Below, piece after piece: positions 652-49,573 of a DNA stretch of 54,628 bases. The notes under the pieces were generated by a model. That model saw only the letters and a list, made by a program, of their open reading frames with translations. It made no database searches and was not told the DNA's origin. The stretch lies in contig JAGXTF010000045.1 of the NCBI GenBank assembly GCA_018333525.1, positions 1-54,628 of the forward strand, in the 5' to 3' direction. The translations under genes and the position numbers were made by a program. Numbering within the stretch: the stretch's first letter is position 1; every line of letters begins with the position of its first letter. Origin of the DNA: Bacteroidota bacterium. Its GTDB lineage: Bacteria > Bacteroidota > Bacteroidia > NS11-12g > UBA955.

Positions 652-656
652 AAATC

Positions 657-685
657 CAAAAGTAATGAAATATTCTCTTCTTCAA
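657..685 (-). promoter_or_regulatory. Bacteroidota promoter for the cupredoxin gene
   Basis: On the minus strand a TTG (685-683) is followed after 18 bases by TACTTTTG (664-657), matching the Bacteroidota -33/-7 consensus TTTG and TAnnTTTG. The -7 box ends only 5 bases before the ATG at 651, so the transcript would have almost no leader. Confidence 0.6.
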
Positions 686-695
686 AATTCAGTAA

Positions 696-703
696 TAGAT
701 TTG
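696..703 (+). promoter_or_regulatory. Putative -7 box for the mevalonate operon
   Basis: TAGATTTG matches TAnnTTTG and lies 7 bases before the TTG start at 711. No good -33 element is visible. It shares the 59-base divergent region with the cupredoxin promoter. Confidence 0.4.
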
Positions 704-710
704 AACCCTG

Positions 711-4534: not shown

Positions 4535-4957
4535 GTTTTTAACAAAGTGAAAACCTTTGCGCACATAACCATGGCGCTCATAAAACCTGTGTCCGCCTTC
4601 ATTATCCAGATAAGCATCCAGCATCATTACTTCACAGGCGTTTTCTCTCGCAATTTGCTCTAGTTTTTTCTGTAAAATTTCACCAATTCCCATGGATCTG
4701 AACTCCCGGTCCACCACCACATTATCAGGTTCTATATATTTTCCGCAGTATAATTTATGCCCAATCCAATAACCTGAAATTGCCACACATCGCTCACCTG
4801 AAAATATACCGAGCAGGTGGTAATTTTTATATTGCATCATAGTAGTCATCCGCCTTTCAAATTCTTCCTGGCTAAGCCTTGGATTCAACTGGTGGTAAAC
4901 AGGAAATACTGCAAGTCGCTCCTGTAATGAAATTATTTCTTTCGTGAAATGTTCCAT
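4523..4957 (-). CDS. GNAT-family N-acetyltransferase
   Basis: A 144-residue single-domain acetyltransferase of the GNAT fold. The acetyl-CoA binding region VVVDREFRSMGIGEILQKKL (about 81-100) has the R-x-x-G-I-G pattern. The following strand EVMMLDAYLDNEGGHRFYERHGY has the usual FYERHGY ending. The substrate cannot be told from sequence. I chose ATG at 4957 rather than a TTG at 4963, because that TTG lies inside a good -7 promoter box (TAGTTTTG). The gene ends inside the 3' end of the UbiA gene. Confidence 0.85.
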   Translation of the reverse strand: MEHFTKEIISLQERLAVFPVYHQLNPRLSQEEFERRMTTMMQYKNYHLLGIFSGERCVAISGYWIGHKLYCGKYIEPDNVVVDREFRSMGIGEILQKKLEQIARENACEVMMLDAYLDNEGGHRFYERHGYVRKGFHFVKNLSE

Positions 4958-4960
4958 ACA

Positions 4961-4989
4961 CAAAACTATATCCGAAATTTAGAGTTCAA
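4961..4989 (-). promoter_or_regulatory. Bacteroidota promoter for the GNAT gene
   Basis: The minus strand carries TTG (4989-4987), an 18-base spacer and TAGTTTTG (4968-4961), the same architecture and spacing as the cupredoxin promoter. The -7 box ends 3 bases before the ATG at 4957, so the mRNA is expected to be leaderless or close to it. Confidence 0.6.
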
Positions 4990-5009
4990 AATAATTATCA
5001 CAGAATATT

Positions 5010-5017
5010 TATCTTTG
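5010..5017 (+). promoter_or_regulatory. Putative -7 box for priA
   Basis: TATCTTTG matches TAnnTTTG and ends 5 bases before the GTG start at 5023. No clear TTG is found 17-23 bases upstream. It lies close to the divergent GNAT promoter. Confidence 0.45.
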
Positions 5018-5022
5018 ACAAG

Positions 5023-7479
5023 GTGTCGGAACGGATTACTCTATTTGCCCATGTGTTGCTTCCGCTACCGGTTCCAAAAGCGTATACATACCGTGTACCT
5101 GTGGAATGGAATGATAATCTGGAGATTGGGCAAAGGGTAGTGGTGCAATTTGGCCCCAGAAAAATATATGCTGGAATTGTTTTGGATTTTACAGATCAGC
5201 CACCTGAGAAATACCAGGCTTCCTATATTTTAGAAATACTGGATGAAAATCCGTTGGTGACACCGGTTCAATTGAAATTCTGGGAATGGATGGCACGCTA
5301 TTATATGTGCTATCAGGGAGAAGTTATGGCGGCTGCTTTGCCGGCCGGATACAGGCTTCAAAGTGAAAGTGTGGTTGTGTTGAATCCGGATTTTCAGGAA
5401 GAGGATGCTGAGGAAATGGATGAAAAAGAATGGCAAATCATTTATGCATTGCAACAGAAAAAACAATTAAAAATTGAAGAAGCTGCAACAGTAATTGGTT
5501 TAAAAACTGCGATGAAATATATCAAGTCATTGTATTTGCGCGGTATCATTTATATGCAGGAAGAAATCAGGGAGAATTTTCGTCCTAAAACGGAGACCTA
5601 TCTGCGCATGAATGAAGTTTGGAATGATGAGGAATTTGCTAAAAAAACGCTGGATACATTAGAGAAAAAAGCACCCAAACAGGCTTCGGTTATTCTGGCT
5701 TTACTGGGTATGGGCAAAGGGGAATTCTCGAAAAAAATATTAACCAATAATTATGGCATTGAGAGCAGCCATATAAAAACTTTAGAAAAAAAAGGGCTTT
5801 TGGATGTGTTTGAAAAACGCACAGAAAGGTATTTGCAACATCAGACAACTATTGCAGAATTTGAATTGACTGAAGTTCAAAGGGAAGCAGTATCATTGAT
5901 AAATCAGTCATTTCAGGAAAATAAACCGGCAGTATTATTCGGCATTACAGGTAGTGGAAAAACCTATGTATATATCCATTTTATACGCGAACAGTTAAAG
6001 CAGGGAAAACAAATATTATATCTGTTGCCCGAAGTGGCTTTAACGGAGCATTTGGTTAGCAGATTGTCTGAATTCTTCGGAGAAAAAATGGCGGTTTGGC
6101 ACAATTATTTTTCTGGAAGTGAGAGAACTGAAATTTATGAATCCATAAAAAACGGAAGTATTCAAATACTGGTGGGCGCGCGTTCCGCTTTATTTGCTCC
6201 GTTTAAAAATCTGGGATTGATTGTAATTGACGAAGAGCATGAAACTTCATTCAAACAATTTGAAAAAAGACCTCATTATCATGGAAGAGATTCTGCATTG
6301 TATTTGGCTGGTATTTGGAAATGCAATGTTTTAATGGGTTCTGCAACCCCTTCATACGAAGTGATGCATGCTTGTGAAGCCGGTAAAATGACTTTGGTTC
6401 CTTTAAAAAAGAGATATTCGGAAACACAGGAACCTGAAATTGAAATTTTGCATTTGGGTGAAGCAAAAAGGCAGAATAAAATGAAAGACATTTTCAGTTT
6501 GCCCATGTTGGAAGAGATTCAAAGACAACTGGATTCAAAAGGTCAGGTAATATTATTTCAAAACCGAAAAGGTTATGTTCCCTATATCAGCTGTGATTTT
6601 TGCGGATTTACCTCTCACTGCATCAATTGTGATATTGCACTTACTTATTATAAAAGTCTTAAAACACAGAAGTGCAATTACTGCGGTTACACCCAGGATC
6701 CACCAGCGCAATGCCCTGCCTGTGGAAGCAATTCTCTGAGCATGCGGGGATTTGGTACCGAGAGAATTGCCGAGGAATTATCTCTGTTATTTCCGGATGC
6801 CAGAATTTCGAGATTTGACCAGGAGAGTATTCGAAAGCGCAGTGATTTTCAAAAAATATTGAATGGATTTGAAAACGGTAGTATTGATATTTTGGTTGGC
6901 ACCCAATTGTTGAGCAAAGGACTGGATTTTAAAAATGTGGGATTGGTGGCAGTTCCAGATGCGGATATGCTCATTAACATTCCGGATTTCAGAAGCCATG
7001 AAAGGGCATTTCAGCAGTTGCATCAGGTTGCGGGAAGATCCGGCCGGGGAACAAAGCGGGGTAAAGTAATGGTGCAAACCTATCAGGCAGCACACCCTGT
7101 GATTCAGGCTTTGGTGGAAAATGATTACAACGGTTTAGCAAAACAGGAACTTGAAATGCGCAAAATGTTGTTATACCCACCATTTTCCAGATTAATTAAA
7201 ATCATTTTCAGGCATAAAGAAAACCAATTGGTACATGAAGCTGCACACGCCTTTGGAAACACGATAAAAAAAGTAATGGCGGATCGCGTGGTTGGTCCGC
7301 AACCACCGGTAGTGAGTAAAGTGCGCAATTATTATATTCAGCAGATGTTGGTGAAAATGGATCCAACCAAAGACAATATCGGCAGTATAAAAAAATACCT
7401 TACTGACGTGGAACAGGTCTTGCGCAAAACTCCCGAATTCCGAAGTGTGCGTCTGGATTTTGACGTGGATCCGCAATAA
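5023..7479 (+). CDS. priA: Primosomal protein N' (replication restart helicase PriA)
   Basis: An 818-residue superfamily 2 helicase that reloads the replisome at stalled forks. The N-terminal 3'-DNA-binding domain is at about 1-105. The Walker A motif is GITGSGKT (307-314) and the DEEH box lies near residue 403. A zinc-binding insertion at about 523-570 has eight cysteines in four CxxC-type pairs, as expected for PriA. Helicase motifs V and VI follow (GTQLLSKGLDF; QVAGRSGRG). Length is slightly above the E. coli protein and normal for Bacteroidota. The start is GTG, with LFAHVLLPLPVPKAYTY directly after it, matching the conserved N-terminus. Confidence 0.96.
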   Translation: MSERITLFAHVLLPLPVPKAYTYRVPVEWNDNLEIGQRVVVQFGPRKIYAGIVLDFTDQPPEKYQASYILEILDENPLVTPVQLKFWEWMARYYMCYQGEVMAAALPAGYRLQSESVVVLNPDFQEEDAEEMDEKEWQIIYALQQKKQLKIEEAATVIGLKTAMKYIKSLYLRGIIYMQEEIRENFRPKTETYLRMNEVWNDEEFAKKTLDTLEKKAPKQASVILALLGMGKGEFSKKILTNNYGIESSHIKTLEKKGLLDVFEKRTERYLQHQTTIAEFELTEVQREAVSLINQSFQENKPAVLFGITGSGKTYVYIHFIREQLKQGKQILYLLPEVALTEHLVSRLSEFFGEKMAVWHNYFSGSERTEIYESIKNGSIQILVGARSALFAPFKNLGLIVIDEEHETSFKQFEKRPHYHGRDSALYLAGIWKCNVLMGSATPSYEVMHACEAGKMTLVPLKKRYSETQEPEIEILHLGEAKRQNKMKDIFSLPMLEEIQRQLDSKGQVILFQNRKGYVPYISCDFCGFTSHCINCDIALTYYKSLKTQKCNYCGYTQDPPAQCPACGSNSLSMRGFGTERIAEELSLLFPDARISRFDQESIRKRSDFQKILNGFENGSIDILVGTQLLSKGLDFKNVGLVAVPDADMLINIPDFRSHERAFQQLHQVAGRSGRGTKRGKVMVQTYQAAHPVIQALVENDYNGLAKQELEMRKMLLYPPFSRLIKIIFRHKENQLVHEAAHAFGNTIKKVMADRVVGPQPPVVSKVRNYYIQQMLVKMDPTKDNIGSIKKYLTDVEQVLRKTPEFRSVRLDFDVDPQ

Positions 7480-11807: not shown

Positions 11808-12221
11808 TTATTCTTCAAATTCTACATGCACATCCTGATTTATATCGGGATGTAAACTACGCGCTACAGGACAAGTTTTAATTATTCGCAATACCCCTTC
11901 ACGTGCATGCATATCATCTATTTCCCTTAGTTTTAGTTTCATATTTACTTCAATCCGCACAATTCTCCGGGGATCGTTAGCCATATGTTTGATTGTAGTT
12001 GCCGACGCACCGTCTAAATGGTATCCATGATTCTGGCAATAAATTCCCATTGTGGTGATAATGCAAACCGTGAGACTGAGTGCACAAAGATCTGTAGGAG
12101 AGAATGCTTCGCCTCTGCCCTGATTGTCGGTAGGGGCATCTGTATGTATGATGGTGCCGCTCTGGATATGTGTATTCTGGGTTCTGAGCTCGCCGAGATA
12201 TTTGGTTTCAAATCCTGCCAT
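11808..12221 (-). CDS. OsmC-family peroxidase/hydroperoxide-resistance protein
   Basis: A 137-residue OsmC/Ohr-fold protein. The two redox cysteines of the family are visible in SLTVCIITTMG and in KTCPVARSLHP; these reduce organic hydroperoxides with thiol turnover. It belongs to the OsmC branch rather than classic Ohr by its short N-terminus and the NHGYHLDG segment. I chose ATG at 12221; a TTG at 12230 lies in the -7 box TAACTTTG. The convergent neighbour, the ABC ATPase, ends 2 bases away. Confidence 0.88.
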   Translation of the reverse strand: MAGFETKYLGELRTQNTHIQSGTIIHTDAPTDNQGRGEAFSPTDLCALSLTVCIITTMGIYCQNHGYHLDGASATTIKHMANDPRRIVRIEVNMKLKLREIDDMHAREGVLRIIKTCPVARSLHPDINQDVHVEFEE

Positions 12222-12227
12222 AGGATT

Positions 12228-12235
12228 CAAAGTTA
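12228..12235 (-). promoter_or_regulatory. Putative -7 box for osmC-like gene
   Basis: TAACTTTG on the minus strand matches TAnnTTTG and ends 6 bases before the ATG at 12221. No TTG occurs 17-23 bases upstream. Confidence 0.4.
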
Positions 12236-22134: not shown

Positions 22135-22142
22135 TAATTTTG
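22135..22142 (+). promoter_or_regulatory. Putative -7 box for the repeat-protein gene
   Basis: TAATTTTG matches TAnnTTTG and ends 11 bases before the ATG at 22154. The two divergent -7 boxes here are so close that the polymerases must compete for this site. Confidence 0.45.
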
Positions 22143-22153
22143 AAAAGTTTTTT

Positions 22154-23284
22154 ATGATGAGAATAGCAATTCTGGGCTTCCTGATATTCGTTTCGTTGCA
22201 ATTACAAGCGCAGGAAAATGGTAAGAGCAAACTGCCTAATGTGAGACATACAGCACTGGAATTCACCATGGATGGAATTGCCCTGTATAAGGGAAAACCA
22301 TTTACAGGCAGTTCGGTACTTCTGTGGGAAAACAACAAGGTGAATGAACAGTTCCATTGGGTAGAGGGTATTAAGGAAGGGCTGTACAGGGAATATACCA
22401 AAGATGGCACTCTGGTGACGGTTTTGAACTATTCAAATGGAACAAAGCACGGGCCATATGAATATTATTATGCAAATGGGCCGAAACAATCCGAAGGAAC
22501 ATTTGTGAACGGGGAACTGGACGGTCTGGTAACAGGATATTATGCAACCGGAATTAAAAAATACGCGGTAAATTACAGCAATGGTATACGCAATGGCGCA
22601 TCTTTAACATGGTTTAAAAATGGAGCTCCGGAGCAGGTGGCATTTTATGTAAATAACATTCCACAAGGGGAAGTTTTGGAATATTACCCCGATTCTTTGT
22701 TGTATTCCATCAGCGATTTTCAAATGGGAATTCGAAATGGAAGGCATTATCAATTTCACAGAAGAAGTGGTTGCCCTGCCATGGAAAGTTATTATAAAAA
22801 GGGCAAGCCGGATAGTGTGAAGCGCATTTGGAATGAACTGAATTGTTTACTGATTCAGGAGGAACATTATTTGCTTGGCAATAAACATGGTGTTTTTATT
22901 AAATACGATGCGAACGGAGATACACTTTCGGTAGAGAATTTTAAAAACAATATTTTGGATGGGGAATTCATGCAATGGGATTCACGAAAAGTGGCGCAGC
23001 CTGTACGATCTCGCAAAACCGGTCTGGATGTAAATTTATACACTATAGAACGCGGTGTGGATGTAATCGGTCAATTTAGCGAAGGGAAAAAAGATGGTTT
23101 CTGGCGTTATGGTATGTTTACCAATTACCAGCACAGAGAAGGCAATTATGCAGACGATGTGATGGTTGGGGAATGGCATTTTTTTGATTTAAATGGTAAA
23201 TTGCTGATGAAACAATGGTATGACGAAAGTGGAAATATTACAAAAGAAAAGAAATATAAAAGGCCCAGGAAAAACAATAAATAA
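22154..23284 (+). CDS. Secreted MORN/YwqK-type repeat protein
   Basis: A 376-residue protein with a signal peptide (about 1-20, ending LQAQ). It contains many copies of a 22-24-residue beta-hairpin repeat of the MORN/YwqK type, with recognisable units such as KHGPYEYYYANG, LDGLVTGYYATG and RNGASLTWFKNG, and later KDGFWRYGMF and MVGEWHFFDLNG. YwqK-type proteins are annotated as antitoxin-like because of Bacillus YwqK, but export and the lack of a toxin gene make that role unlikely here. A longer reading frame opens at 21809, but it runs antisense through the MmcQ gene; ATG at 22154 gives the signal peptide. It ends 3 bases before the uridine kinase start. Confidence 0.85.
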   Translation: MMRIAILGFLIFVSLQLQAQENGKSKLPNVRHTALEFTMDGIALYKGKPFTGSSVLLWENNKVNEQFHWVEGIKEGLYREYTKDGTLVTVLNYSNGTKHGPYEYYYANGPKQSEGTFVNGELDGLVTGYYATGIKKYAVNYSNGIRNGASLTWFKNGAPEQVAFYVNNIPQGEVLEYYPDSLLYSISDFQMGIRNGRHYQFHRRSGCPAMESYYKKGKPDSVKRIWNELNCLLIQEEHYLLGNKHGVFIKYDANGDTLSVENFKNNILDGEFMQWDSRKVAQPVRSRKTGLDVNLYTIERGVDVIGQFSEGKKDGFWRYGMFTNYQHREGNYADDVMVGEWHFFDLNGKLLMKQWYDESGNITKEKKYKRPRKNNK

Positions 23285-24307: not shown

Positions 24308-24315
24308 TAATTTTG
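24308..24315 (+). promoter_or_regulatory. Putative -7 box for the ChaN-like gene
   Basis: TAATTTTG matches TAnnTTTG and ends only 3 bases before the ATG at 24319. A TTG at 24313, which would add two residues, falls within this box. No good -33 element is seen. Confidence 0.35.
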
Positions 24316-24318
24316 GGC

Positions 24319-25188
24319 ATGCAAAAAAACATAAAGTGGCTGGCATTATGGATTTTGATTTCAGCTTTTGGAATGAAAGGAGATAAGCCTGCTTACACCA
24401 TTTTTAATGGAAAAGGGAAAAGGGTGGAATATCAAAAAATGCTGGATGCGGCGTTGAAAGCAGACGTGGTACTATTTGGGGAATTGCACAACAATCCGAT
24501 TTGCCACTGGCTGGAGCTGGAACTCACCAAGGATATTTATAAGACGAAATTAAATGACCTGGTATTGGGCGCAGAAATGTTTGAATCCGATAACCAAAAA
24601 GCATTGGATTCCTTTCTTGAAGGCCATTATGATGCCAAACAACTGAAACAGGCTGCGCGCCTATGGCCCAATTACAATACGGATTATGAACCATTGGTAG
24701 CTTTTGCTAAAGAAAAGAAATTGAATTTTGTCGCATCCAATATTCCAAGACGTTATGCGAGACTGGTCAATAGCCGTGGATTTGAAGGATTAGACACCCT
24801 CAGTTACCGCGAAAAACTGTGGATTGCACCATTGCCAATTATGTATGACAGCTCACTTCCCGGATATGCGGAAATTCTAAAAGCAATGGGAGGCAGTGGG
24901 CATGGAAGTAAGAATATTGCAAAGGCACAGGCAAGTAAAGATGCAACTATGGCATATTTTATTGTGAAAAATCTGGCAGAAGGGAAGGCATTTATTCATT
25001 ACAACGGAACCTACCACAGCAACAATTACGAAGGAATAGTCTGGTATCTAAAAAAATACAAACCGGGAATTAAGATTGTGACAATTGCATCCGCAGAACA
25101 AGGGGACATCCGGGTTATTGACAACGATAATAAAGGACTGGCCGACTTTACGATAATTGTAACAGAAAGCATGACAAAAACGTATTGA
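24319..25188 (+). CDS. ChaN-like heme/iron-uptake associated protein
   Basis: A 289-residue secreted protein of the ChaN family (Haem_bd_uptake fold). It has a signal sequence (about 1-20) without a clear lipobox. The core motifs are VVLFGELHNNPICHWLELEL, LVLGAEMFESDNQ, NFVASNIPRRYARLV and FIHYNGTYHSNNYEGIVWYL. ChaN proteins bind heme, and one structural class includes proteins with gate-like metal sites (Glu/His in GELHNN, His in YHSNN). The biological substrate is not proven. It precedes a TonB-dependent receptor on the same strand by 77 bases, consistent with nutrient uptake. Confidence 0.82.
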   Translation: MQKNIKWLALWILISAFGMKGDKPAYTIFNGKGKRVEYQKMLDAALKADVVLFGELHNNPICHWLELELTKDIYKTKLNDLVLGAEMFESDNQKALDSFLEGHYDAKQLKQAARLWPNYNTDYEPLVAFAKEKKLNFVASNIPRRYARLVNSRGFEGLDTLSYREKLWIAPLPIMYDSSLPGYAEILKAMGGSGHGSKNIAKAQASKDATMAYFIVKNLAEGKAFIHYNGTYHSNNYEGIVWYLKKYKPGIKIVTIASAEQGDIRVIDNDNKGLADFTIIVTESMTKTY

Positions 25189-47597: not shown

Positions 47598-47683
47598 TTA
47601 TGCGTATAATCGATTTAATGGTGCTTTTAATCATTGCATGATGTCTATTGATGAATATCGTTACTTTTCTGAAATTACAGCTC

Positions 47684-47691
47684 TACATTTG
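47684..47691 (+). promoter_or_regulatory. Putative -7 box for the L,D-transpeptidase gene
   Basis: TACATTTG matches TAnnTTTG and ends 7 bases before the ATG at 47699, supporting that start over the upstream codon at 47648. Confidence 0.45.
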
Positions 47692-47698
47692 TAATTGT

Positions 47699-49573
47699 AT
47701 GTGGAAATGGCTCTGTATGGTTGCTTTGGGAATGGTTGGACTTTATTCATGCCGTTCCAGGGATAAAGTGATTTTGGTAAAAACAACCCTGCAAAACCAT
47801 ACCCAAATTTCAAAGTTACATGGTCATACTTTAAAACATTTGGGGCAATTAAGCGATTCCGGGACACTTTACGGGCATTATCTCAATTTTGCCGACACAT
47901 TGCTTGTTCTCTTTCAAAACGAGGACAATATGGAGCTTTGGTTTAATAAATTGCTTTCGGATAATAACGCACTATTCAAACAAACTCTGGGTATTTTGGA
48001 ACAGGCAGAAAACCATGGCCTGGAAAACGAGTTTTATCATGTTGGCTTTTTAAATTCCGCATTACAAAGCATTCAAAAGAACAGATGGGATAGCATAGTT
48101 CCGTATGACAGTCTTTCTATGCTCATGGTTTTATCTGCAGATGCAGTGATGGGATTTTACAGCAATATGCAGAGTGGCAGAATTGACCCTTCCTACACCG
48201 GCAGTTTAGACGTGCTACCCAGACGCCGGCATGGATTGTTACTCCCATTGATTTTGGAGGATTCCACTTTCCCTGCATTAAAATATTGCATCCCAAAATT
48301 TATGGAATATCGTTTTTTACAAAAGGAATATATGCGTGTAAAAAATAGCCGGAACCCGAGGGATGGAAAAGCCCTTTATCTGGGAAGAATGTTGAGGCCG
48401 GGAGACAGTCTGGCATTTCTTTCAAGACGTTTGGCCGAAAGGCTTAAACTTTTTGGCTACTATTCTGTGGAAGATAGCAATATCCATAAAATAAAAAATT
48501 ACAATTGGGAATTAATGCACGCTGTGGAGCTGTTACAAGCGGCAAATGGATTGGAAGTAAGCGGTAATGTAGATTATAAAACCAGGTTGTTATTGCAAAC
48601 GACAAAAGACGAAATGTTGATTTCTCTTCGTGCCAATTTGGAGCGCTGGCGCTGGTTGGGTGTGATAAATGAGCATTCCTATGTATGGGCGAATATTGGT
48701 GAAAATAAAGTTTACGCATTTAAAAACGATAGTTTAAAAGTAGAGATGAAAATTTGTTCCGGCAAAAGCAGAGATACGGCATATTATAATAAATTGGAAC
48801 GCGCGAAAAAAGATCAGAAATTAACTGCACCTGATAATCTGGAAACCCCACTGATGAAGGCCGAAATGACGCATATGGTTGTAAATCCTTCCTGGTTTGT
48901 TCCCAAAAATATTATGATAAAGGAGTTGCTTCCCCAGTTAAAAACAGACAGGAGTATATTAACGGAAAAAAATTATATTCTCCGCAATTATAAAGGAGAA
49001 GAAATTGATCCCAACAGCATCGACTGGTCACAGGTTACGGAAAAAAACTGGAAATACGGAATGGAGCAGCTTCCCGGAGAAGAAAATGCGCTGGGTAAAA
49101 TCGTCATTCATTTTCCAAATAAATACAGCATTTTTATGCATGACACACCTTCGAAATTTGCATTTGAATATAAAGACCGGCACGTAAGTCATGGTTGTAT
49201 GAGAATGGAAGAACCTCTGAAAATGGCCGAATTTTTATCTTCTTTCAACAAAAAAAACAACATAGACGAAATTTATATTGCTGCCGGAATGGAACCCGTT
49301 TTGGATGAGAAAAAAATAAAAAAATACCAGGAGGATATGAAAGATTCAGTCAGGGCTGCAAAGCTAAAACCCAAGCCTAACCGATATTTCAAGAATGATA
49401 AATCCATTCCCGTTTACCTGGTGTATTTTACCTGTTCTGTAAATTCTGCAGGGAAAATTAATTATTTTTTCGACAGTTATAACCGAGATAAAAAGATGCT
49501 TTCGGAAATGAAAAGGCCTTCAAAAAAAGTCAGAAAAACCAAGGTAAATTCCCAACAGGTATTTAGTCCATGA
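47699..49573 (+). CDS. L,D-transpeptidase, YcbB-type
   Basis: A 624-residue lipoprotein-like enzyme (signal to Cys in GLYSC). The N-terminal scaffold (about 40-260) is followed by a peptidoglycan-binding-like helix set (LLQAANGLEVSGNVDYKTRLLL), then a YkuD domain. The catalytic motif HVSHGCMRMEEP places Cys500 and His498, with the preceding FMHDTPSKFAFEYKDR typical of the YcbB subgroup. It makes 3-3 cross-links or attaches proteins in the peptidoglycan. A basic C-terminal tail (about 580-624, PSKKVRKTKVN) follows. The last 11 bases overlap the convergent T9SS gene. Confidence 0.88.
   Translation: MWKWLCMVALGMVGLYSCRSRDKVILVKTTLQNHTQISKLHGHTLKHLGQLSDSGTLYGHYLNFADTLLVLFQNEDNMELWFNKLLSDNNALFKQTLGILEQAENHGLENEFYHVGFLNSALQSIQKNRWDSIVPYDSLSMLMVLSADAVMGFYSNMQSGRIDPSYTGSLDVLPRRRHGLLLPLILEDSTFPALKYCIPKFMEYRFLQKEYMRVKNSRNPRDGKALYLGRMLRPGDSLAFLSRRLAERLKLFGYYSVEDSNIHKIKNYNWELMHAVELLQAANGLEVSGNVDYKTRLLLQTTKDEMLISLRANLERWRWLGVINEHSYVWANIGENKVYAFKNDSLKVEMKICSGKSRDTAYYNKLERAKKDQKLTAPDNLETPLMKAEMTHMVVNPSWFVPKNIMIKELLPQLKTDRSILTEKNYILRNYKGEEIDPNSIDWSQVTEKNWKYGMEQLPGEENALGKIVIHFPNKYSIFMHDTPSKFAFEYKDRHVSHGCMRMEEPLKMAEFLSSFNKKNNIDEIYIAAGMEPVLDEKKIKKYQEDMKDSVRAAKLKPKPNRYFKNDKSIPVYLVYFTCSVNSAGKINYFFDSYNRDKKMLSEMKRPSKKVRKTKVNSQQVFSP

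Follow-up and report, generated by a model that had tools for sequence, protein, structure and literature searches.

In the 54,628-nucleotide stretch of Bacteroidota DNA analysed here (the window), eight TAnnTTTG boxes lie directly ahead of start codons. Judged from sequence, we put the probability at about 0.87 that these boxes are the -7 elements of sigma-ABfr-type promoters yielding leaderless or near-leaderless mRNAs, an arrangement that would hold for about half of the strict-box promoters of this genome. Bacteroidota housekeeping promoters have TAnnTTTG as their -7 element (PMC6847099). Start mapping by RNA-seq in F. psychrophilum located the -7 box at -12 to -5 (PMC9723704), and in probable promoters of F. 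johnsoniae 4 or 5 bases separate the box from the transcription start (PMC6847099). Given this published distance, a gap of 4 bases (the gap being the number of bases between the last G of the box and the start codon) would make the A of the ATG the first transcribed base.

In the mechanism we propose, RNA polymerase would start 4–5 bases past the final G of the box. At gaps of 3–6 the mRNA would then have its 5' end on the start codon or no more than two bases away from it; at gaps of 7–11 it would have a leader of about 3–7 bases. A leader of 0–7 bases has no room for a Shine-Dalgarno site; the ribosome would start on the 5'-terminal ATG (sometimes GTG or TTG) without Shine-Dalgarno contact. 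The route is extrapolated from other bacteria, for which it has been suggested that the 5' start codon is recognised directly, with the participation of IF2 and the initiator tRNA (reviewed in PMC10783764). Shine-Dalgarno-like 5-mers were found at -20 to -4 in 21 of 623 genes, as compared to 12 of 623 at -60 to -44, as expected for a genome that does without such sites. The actual 5' ends we infer from the published box-to-start distance.

Boxes and start codons in the window

The boxes had been predicted from the letters of the window, and all eight were recovered exactly, at the predicted gaps from usable starts, when the sequence was re-read (Table 1). All start codons used in this analysis are computational. 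The starts at 651, 4957, 12221 and 24319 were picked independently by an automatic caller blind to the box, which took other starts for the remaining four genes (711, 5023, 22154, 47699). Orthologues begin at the same codon as the genes at 711 and 5023, backing both the TTG and the GTG start, while the starts at 22154 and 47699 are based on signal-peptide-like N-termini as judged by eye. For the 22154 gene a leader of about 7 bases is expected; single boxes such as this one could be chance occurrences.

Table 1. Predicted promoter elements in the window
Feature	Position	Strand	Spacing	Gene and remarks
-7 box TACTTTTG	657..664	-	gap 5 to ATG at 651	gene 61-651, signal-peptide-like N-terminus
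-7 box TAGATTTG	696..703	+	gap 7 to TTG at 711	GHMP-kinase-like gene 711-1640; TTG/GTG start conserved in relatives
-7 box TAGTTTTG	4961..4968	-	gap 3 to ATG at 4957	GNAT acetyltransferase
-7 box TATCTTTG	5010..5017	+	gap 5 to GTG at 5023	priA
-7 box TAACTTTG	12228..12235	-	gap 6 to ATG at 12221	OsmC family
-7 box TAATTTTG	22135..22142	+	gap 11 to ATG at 22154	MORN-repeat protein; weakest case
-7 box TAATTTTG	24308..24315	+	gap 3 to ATG at 24319	ChaN/Tiki-like haem-binding protein
-7 box TACATTTG	47684..47691	+	gap 7 to ATG at 47699	L,D-transpeptidase, lipoprotein-like N-terminus; alternative ATG at 47651
TTG, possible -33 element (weak)	683..685	-	18 bases upstream of 651 box	
TTG, possible -33 element (weak)	4987..4989	-	18 bases upstream of 4957 box	

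The 59-bp intergenic space 652..710 holds two divergent, overlapping promoters, each abutting its own start codon, and leaves no room for leaders between the divergent genes; the 65-bp space 4958-5022 has the same layout. Both spaces consist entirely of back-to-back promoter pairs, with boxes 31 and 41 bp apart, respectively, and the upstream region of each promoter overlaps that of its partner. The boxes of the genes at 711 and 4957 have G as the first n, departing from the strict TAHH form. Both TTG triplets that the original prediction had placed 18 bases from the 651 and 4957 boxes are present. Across the genome, TTG at this spacing accompanies 4 of 34 short-gap promoters (12%) and 2% of coding boxes, the numbers being small; the -33 element is also hard to see in the published data on F. 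johnsoniae (PMC6847099).

Over the window as a whole, TAnnTTTG is not enriched (70 occurrences versus 73.7 expected from shuffles), which means that it is the position ahead of starts that matters. The chance of finding the box at such a short distance had been estimated at well under 1% per start, and the computed value of 0.58%, corresponding to about 0.26 boxes expected among 45 starts, bears this out. The Poisson probability of at least eight boxes at gaps of 3–11 among the 45 window starts is 4e-10, a figure that ignores the reader's choice of starts; since the starts had been picked by the reader, the real test is genome-wide.

Enrichment across the genome

The sample comprised 893 kb (24%) of the 3.71-Mb draft genome (118 contigs), in which 643 genes were called by a dicodon gene caller blind to the box; it replaced a codon-only caller that trimmed N-termini. 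A gene was classed as leading if over 50 bases separated it from the gene upstream (n=393), and as operon-internal if this distance was 20 bases or less (n=189). The box occurred at gaps of 3–11 in 44 of the 393 leading genes, i.e. in about 11% (strict box, this sample), as compared to a mean of 3.2 (sd 1.7, maximum 8) in 200 dinucleotide shuffles. Among leading genes the gap histogram peaks at gap 4 (17 genes), followed by gap 5 (7) and gap 6 (6). Plotted in this way against shuffled upstream regions, as the original prediction had proposed, box-to-start distances in 24% of the genome show a sharp enrichment at gaps 3–7. A box generated merely by AT-rich upstream composition would be consistent with its being common, and not enriched overall, in the window, but the observed counts were far above those obtained with the dinucleotide shuffles, with eight permuted control patterns and with reversed-pattern controls. 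Chance is excluded as a genome-wide explanation by these controls, and we assign it a negligible probability.

The gap peak at 4 coincides with the published distance from box to transcription start. The TTTG motif might alternatively be a translational signal, either Kozak-like or an S1-type ribosome site, rather than part of a promoter; in favour of such a signal, Bacteroidota are described as lacking Shine-Dalgarno sites and using upstream sequence context (PMC6847099). Operon-internal genes would need a translational signal as well, yet only 1 of 189 carries the motif at gaps of 3–11, and the six bases, again followed by C, also stand at longer distances; moreover, the peak lies at the distance that separates promoter and start in related bacteria. 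A translational signal thus appears highly improbable, and the sigma-ABfr -7 element (TAnnTTTG / TAHHTTTG), enriched ahead of leading and not of internal genes, is the preferred reading.

If the true starts lay downstream, the mRNAs would have ordinary leaders and the short gaps would reflect mis-annotation. This is what the caller would imply when homology is ignored, since it then favours 741 over 711 and 5101 over 5023. However, orthologues of priA, the GHMP kinase, OsmC and ChaN align from their first residues, several of the proteins have signal peptides beginning at the Met in question (by eye), and random errors would not produce a sharp peak at gap 4. Close upstream in-frame stops, furthermore, fix many first ATGs, and the effect persists for first ATGs no more than 60 bases from an in-frame stop, with 24 genes at short gaps versus 40 at gaps of 12–47; in G008, a genome of the same family as the window's, the corresponding numbers are 11 and 7. 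Mis-annotation is therefore very unlikely, and we retain starts next to the boxes.

Promoters with leaders (box at 12–47) equal the short ones in number, 45 versus 44 leading genes. A C directly follows TTTG in 47% of short-gap and 54% of long-gap boxes, versus 13% of boxes in coding sequence. The only one-mismatch variant with measurable background that is clearly enriched at gaps 3–7 is TAnnTTCG (9 versus 1.0), which appears to serve as a variant box. The shared following C and the tolerance of TTCG alone make short- and long-gap boxes look like one promoter class. TAnnTTCG (L062–L064, G000), about ninefold enriched at these gaps, is also present ahead of priA in related genera. Counted over all of genome G000, there are 3752 copies of the box TANNTTTG and 4995 of its mirror image; this deficit may reflect avoidance of stray promoters.

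The original prediction had read the boxes as signs of leaderless or near-leaderless mRNAs, and the enrichment, the gap-4 peak, and the recurrence in orthologues and spread over families described below lend support to this at the sequence level: many messages in this genome and its relatives would be expected to have their 5' end at the first codon or right beside it. As to the further claim that leaderless initiation is a normal mode, it would be co-dominant, applying to about half of the box-bearing promoters (44 of 89), and not universal. About three quarters of the leading genes have no strict box within 3–47 bases, which makes the genome-wide leaderless share uncertain.

Orthologues and other Bacteroidota

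Orthologues of four of the genes (priA, GHMP kinase, OsmC, ChaN) in other genera again have the box at gaps of 4–8. priA has a GTG start in the window's genome and in six family members; five of these six have a TAnnTTYG or TAnnTTGC box ending 4–7 bases ahead of the GTG. In two priA orthologues (L065, L066), TAACTTGC stands four bases ahead of the GTG; it resembles the TAnnTTGY motif (SM5), which the F. psychrophilum study assigns to a probable alternative sigma factor (PMC9723704). The GHMP kinase, which retains its rare TTG/GTG start across orthologues, has the box at gap 4 in L115, L117 and L111 and at gap 8 in L105 and L108. In near relatives (L093, L094, L100, L101, L103) the GHMP kinase gene directly follows the stop of the upstream gene; in the window its neighbour is divergent and the gene has a promoter of its own, and the comparison of sequences suggests that this promoter was gained after a rearrangement. 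The ChaN box is located at gap 4 in L133, L148 and L146 and at gap 5 in L131, and a gap of 4 is also seen for the OsmC orthologue of L277. Several further orthologues have no box close to the start, so that the arrangement is recurrent and not universal.

For calibration, we determined the share of short gaps (3–11) among leading genes with a box within 3–47 bases. In the window's genome this share is 44 of 89, in G008 9 of 16, and in the nearest named relatives 7 of 9; the records of the latter are uncultured MAGs labelled Flavobacteriales bacterium, Sphingobacteriia bacterium and Bacteroidetes bacterium. Across 74 other named Bacteroidota loci, mostly Flavobacteriaceae, it amounts to 19 of 128 (15%; 19 short versus 109 long), a set made up of the neighbourhoods of one gene and including orthologous repeats; the difference from the window's genome is significant (Fisher p = 5e-8). 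The genomes G191 (3 of 31; 3 versus 28) and G275 (1 of 34; 1 versus 33) have lower shares still. Published experimental figures are 13% with leaders of up to 10 nt in F. johnsoniae (PMC6847099), 5.5% leaderless in F. psychrophilum (PMC9723704) and 3.7% leaderless in Bacteroides thetaiotaomicron (PMC7366714), and the 15% of the named loci is close to this range of 3.7–13%. Gaps in the named Flavobacterium loci and in G191 are bimodal, being either 4 (one at 3) or at least 12, with none at 5–11, as if very short leaders were disfavoured there. The window's genome fills this trough: its lineage also uses gaps of 5–11, i.e. predicted short leaders, in contrast to the sampled Flavobacterium loci.

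For 296 genomes, sites matching the pattern at gap 4 or at gap 18 were counted and compared to the respective reversed pattern; follow-up counts covered 37 relatives (both gaps) and 32 genomes behind named loci (gap 4 alone). Families were tabulated for a non-random subset consisting of all 72 other genomes of the same class, all those of f26, f38, f34, f49 and f40, and hand-picked genomes of f25, f19, f18 and f36. As the fixed patterns take ATG starts and one gap each, they rank lineages and give no fractions. Gap-5 pattern counts in the window's own genome gave no signal, background being dominant, and gap 4 versus gap 18 with reversed controls was used. In the window's family, gap 4 yielded 1755 sites versus 578 reversed controls and gap 18 yielded 1095 versus 622, gap 4 being favoured over gap 18 in 19 of 23 genomes. 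Within the tabulated subset, the gap-4 excess is also dominant in f11, f26, f9, f38 and f8, and weak or absent in f25, f18, f13 and f19 (f25 and f19 were assessed as low by pattern counts alone). In the 2.1-Mb genome G010, 129 gap-4 sites compare with 9 controls (excess 120), and 12 gap-18 sites with 7 (excess 5). The survey shows that leaderless use, as predicted from these patterns, is lineage-dependent, being dominant in the window's family and several others and rare in others. It is somewhat probable that leaderless mRNA is a main mode of gene expression in several Bacteroidota families including the window's, with near-complete collapse of the 5' leader in extreme cases such as G010, and that the low figures from model species reflect the families studied.

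Relation to known promoters and implications

The predicted promoters share the -7 element with the Bacteroidota sigma-ABfr promoter (TTTG at -33, TAnnTTTG at -7; published start 4–5 bases past the box) and have no clear -33 element. They differ from the usual sigma-ABfr promoter, which lies 12–40 bases ahead of the start, in that about half are at 3–11 and in that TTCG is tolerated. Leaderless transcripts from the same promoter type are known from F. johnsoniae, F. psychrophilum and B. thetaiotaomicron, where they are a minority; among recognised promoters they would be roughly four to thirteen times commoner here, the 5' ends in this genome being predicted. TA-led leaderless genes of Actinobacteria and Deinococcus-Thermus likewise have a promoter box about 12 bases ahead of the start in a large share of genes, but box and sigma factor differ from those of the window (PMC3160421). 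The same survey reported a Pribnow-like signal in 1 of 37 Bacteroidetes/Chlorobi genomes (PMC3160421); having sought a signal of that kind, it would miss TAnnTTTG. Leaderless use in Bacteroidetes was suggested earlier from nucleotide bias (PMC5397173). A literature search found neither a transcription start map from the window's lineage nor a report that leaderless transcripts are so frequent in this and a number of further Bacteroidota families. The promoter and leaderless mRNA as such are known; what is new is how prominent leaderless mRNA would be in these lineages.

The question of how Bacteroidota ribosomes locate starts in the absence of Shine-Dalgarno sites is still open; its rarity in Flavobacterium and Bacteroides has led to leaderless mRNA being discounted as an answer. 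Should families differ in this respect, conclusions from these two genera would not extend to the phylum. In that case, gene finders blind to the -7 box may misplace starts in such genomes, and the phylum would offer a graded natural series for the shift from leadered to leaderless mRNAs.
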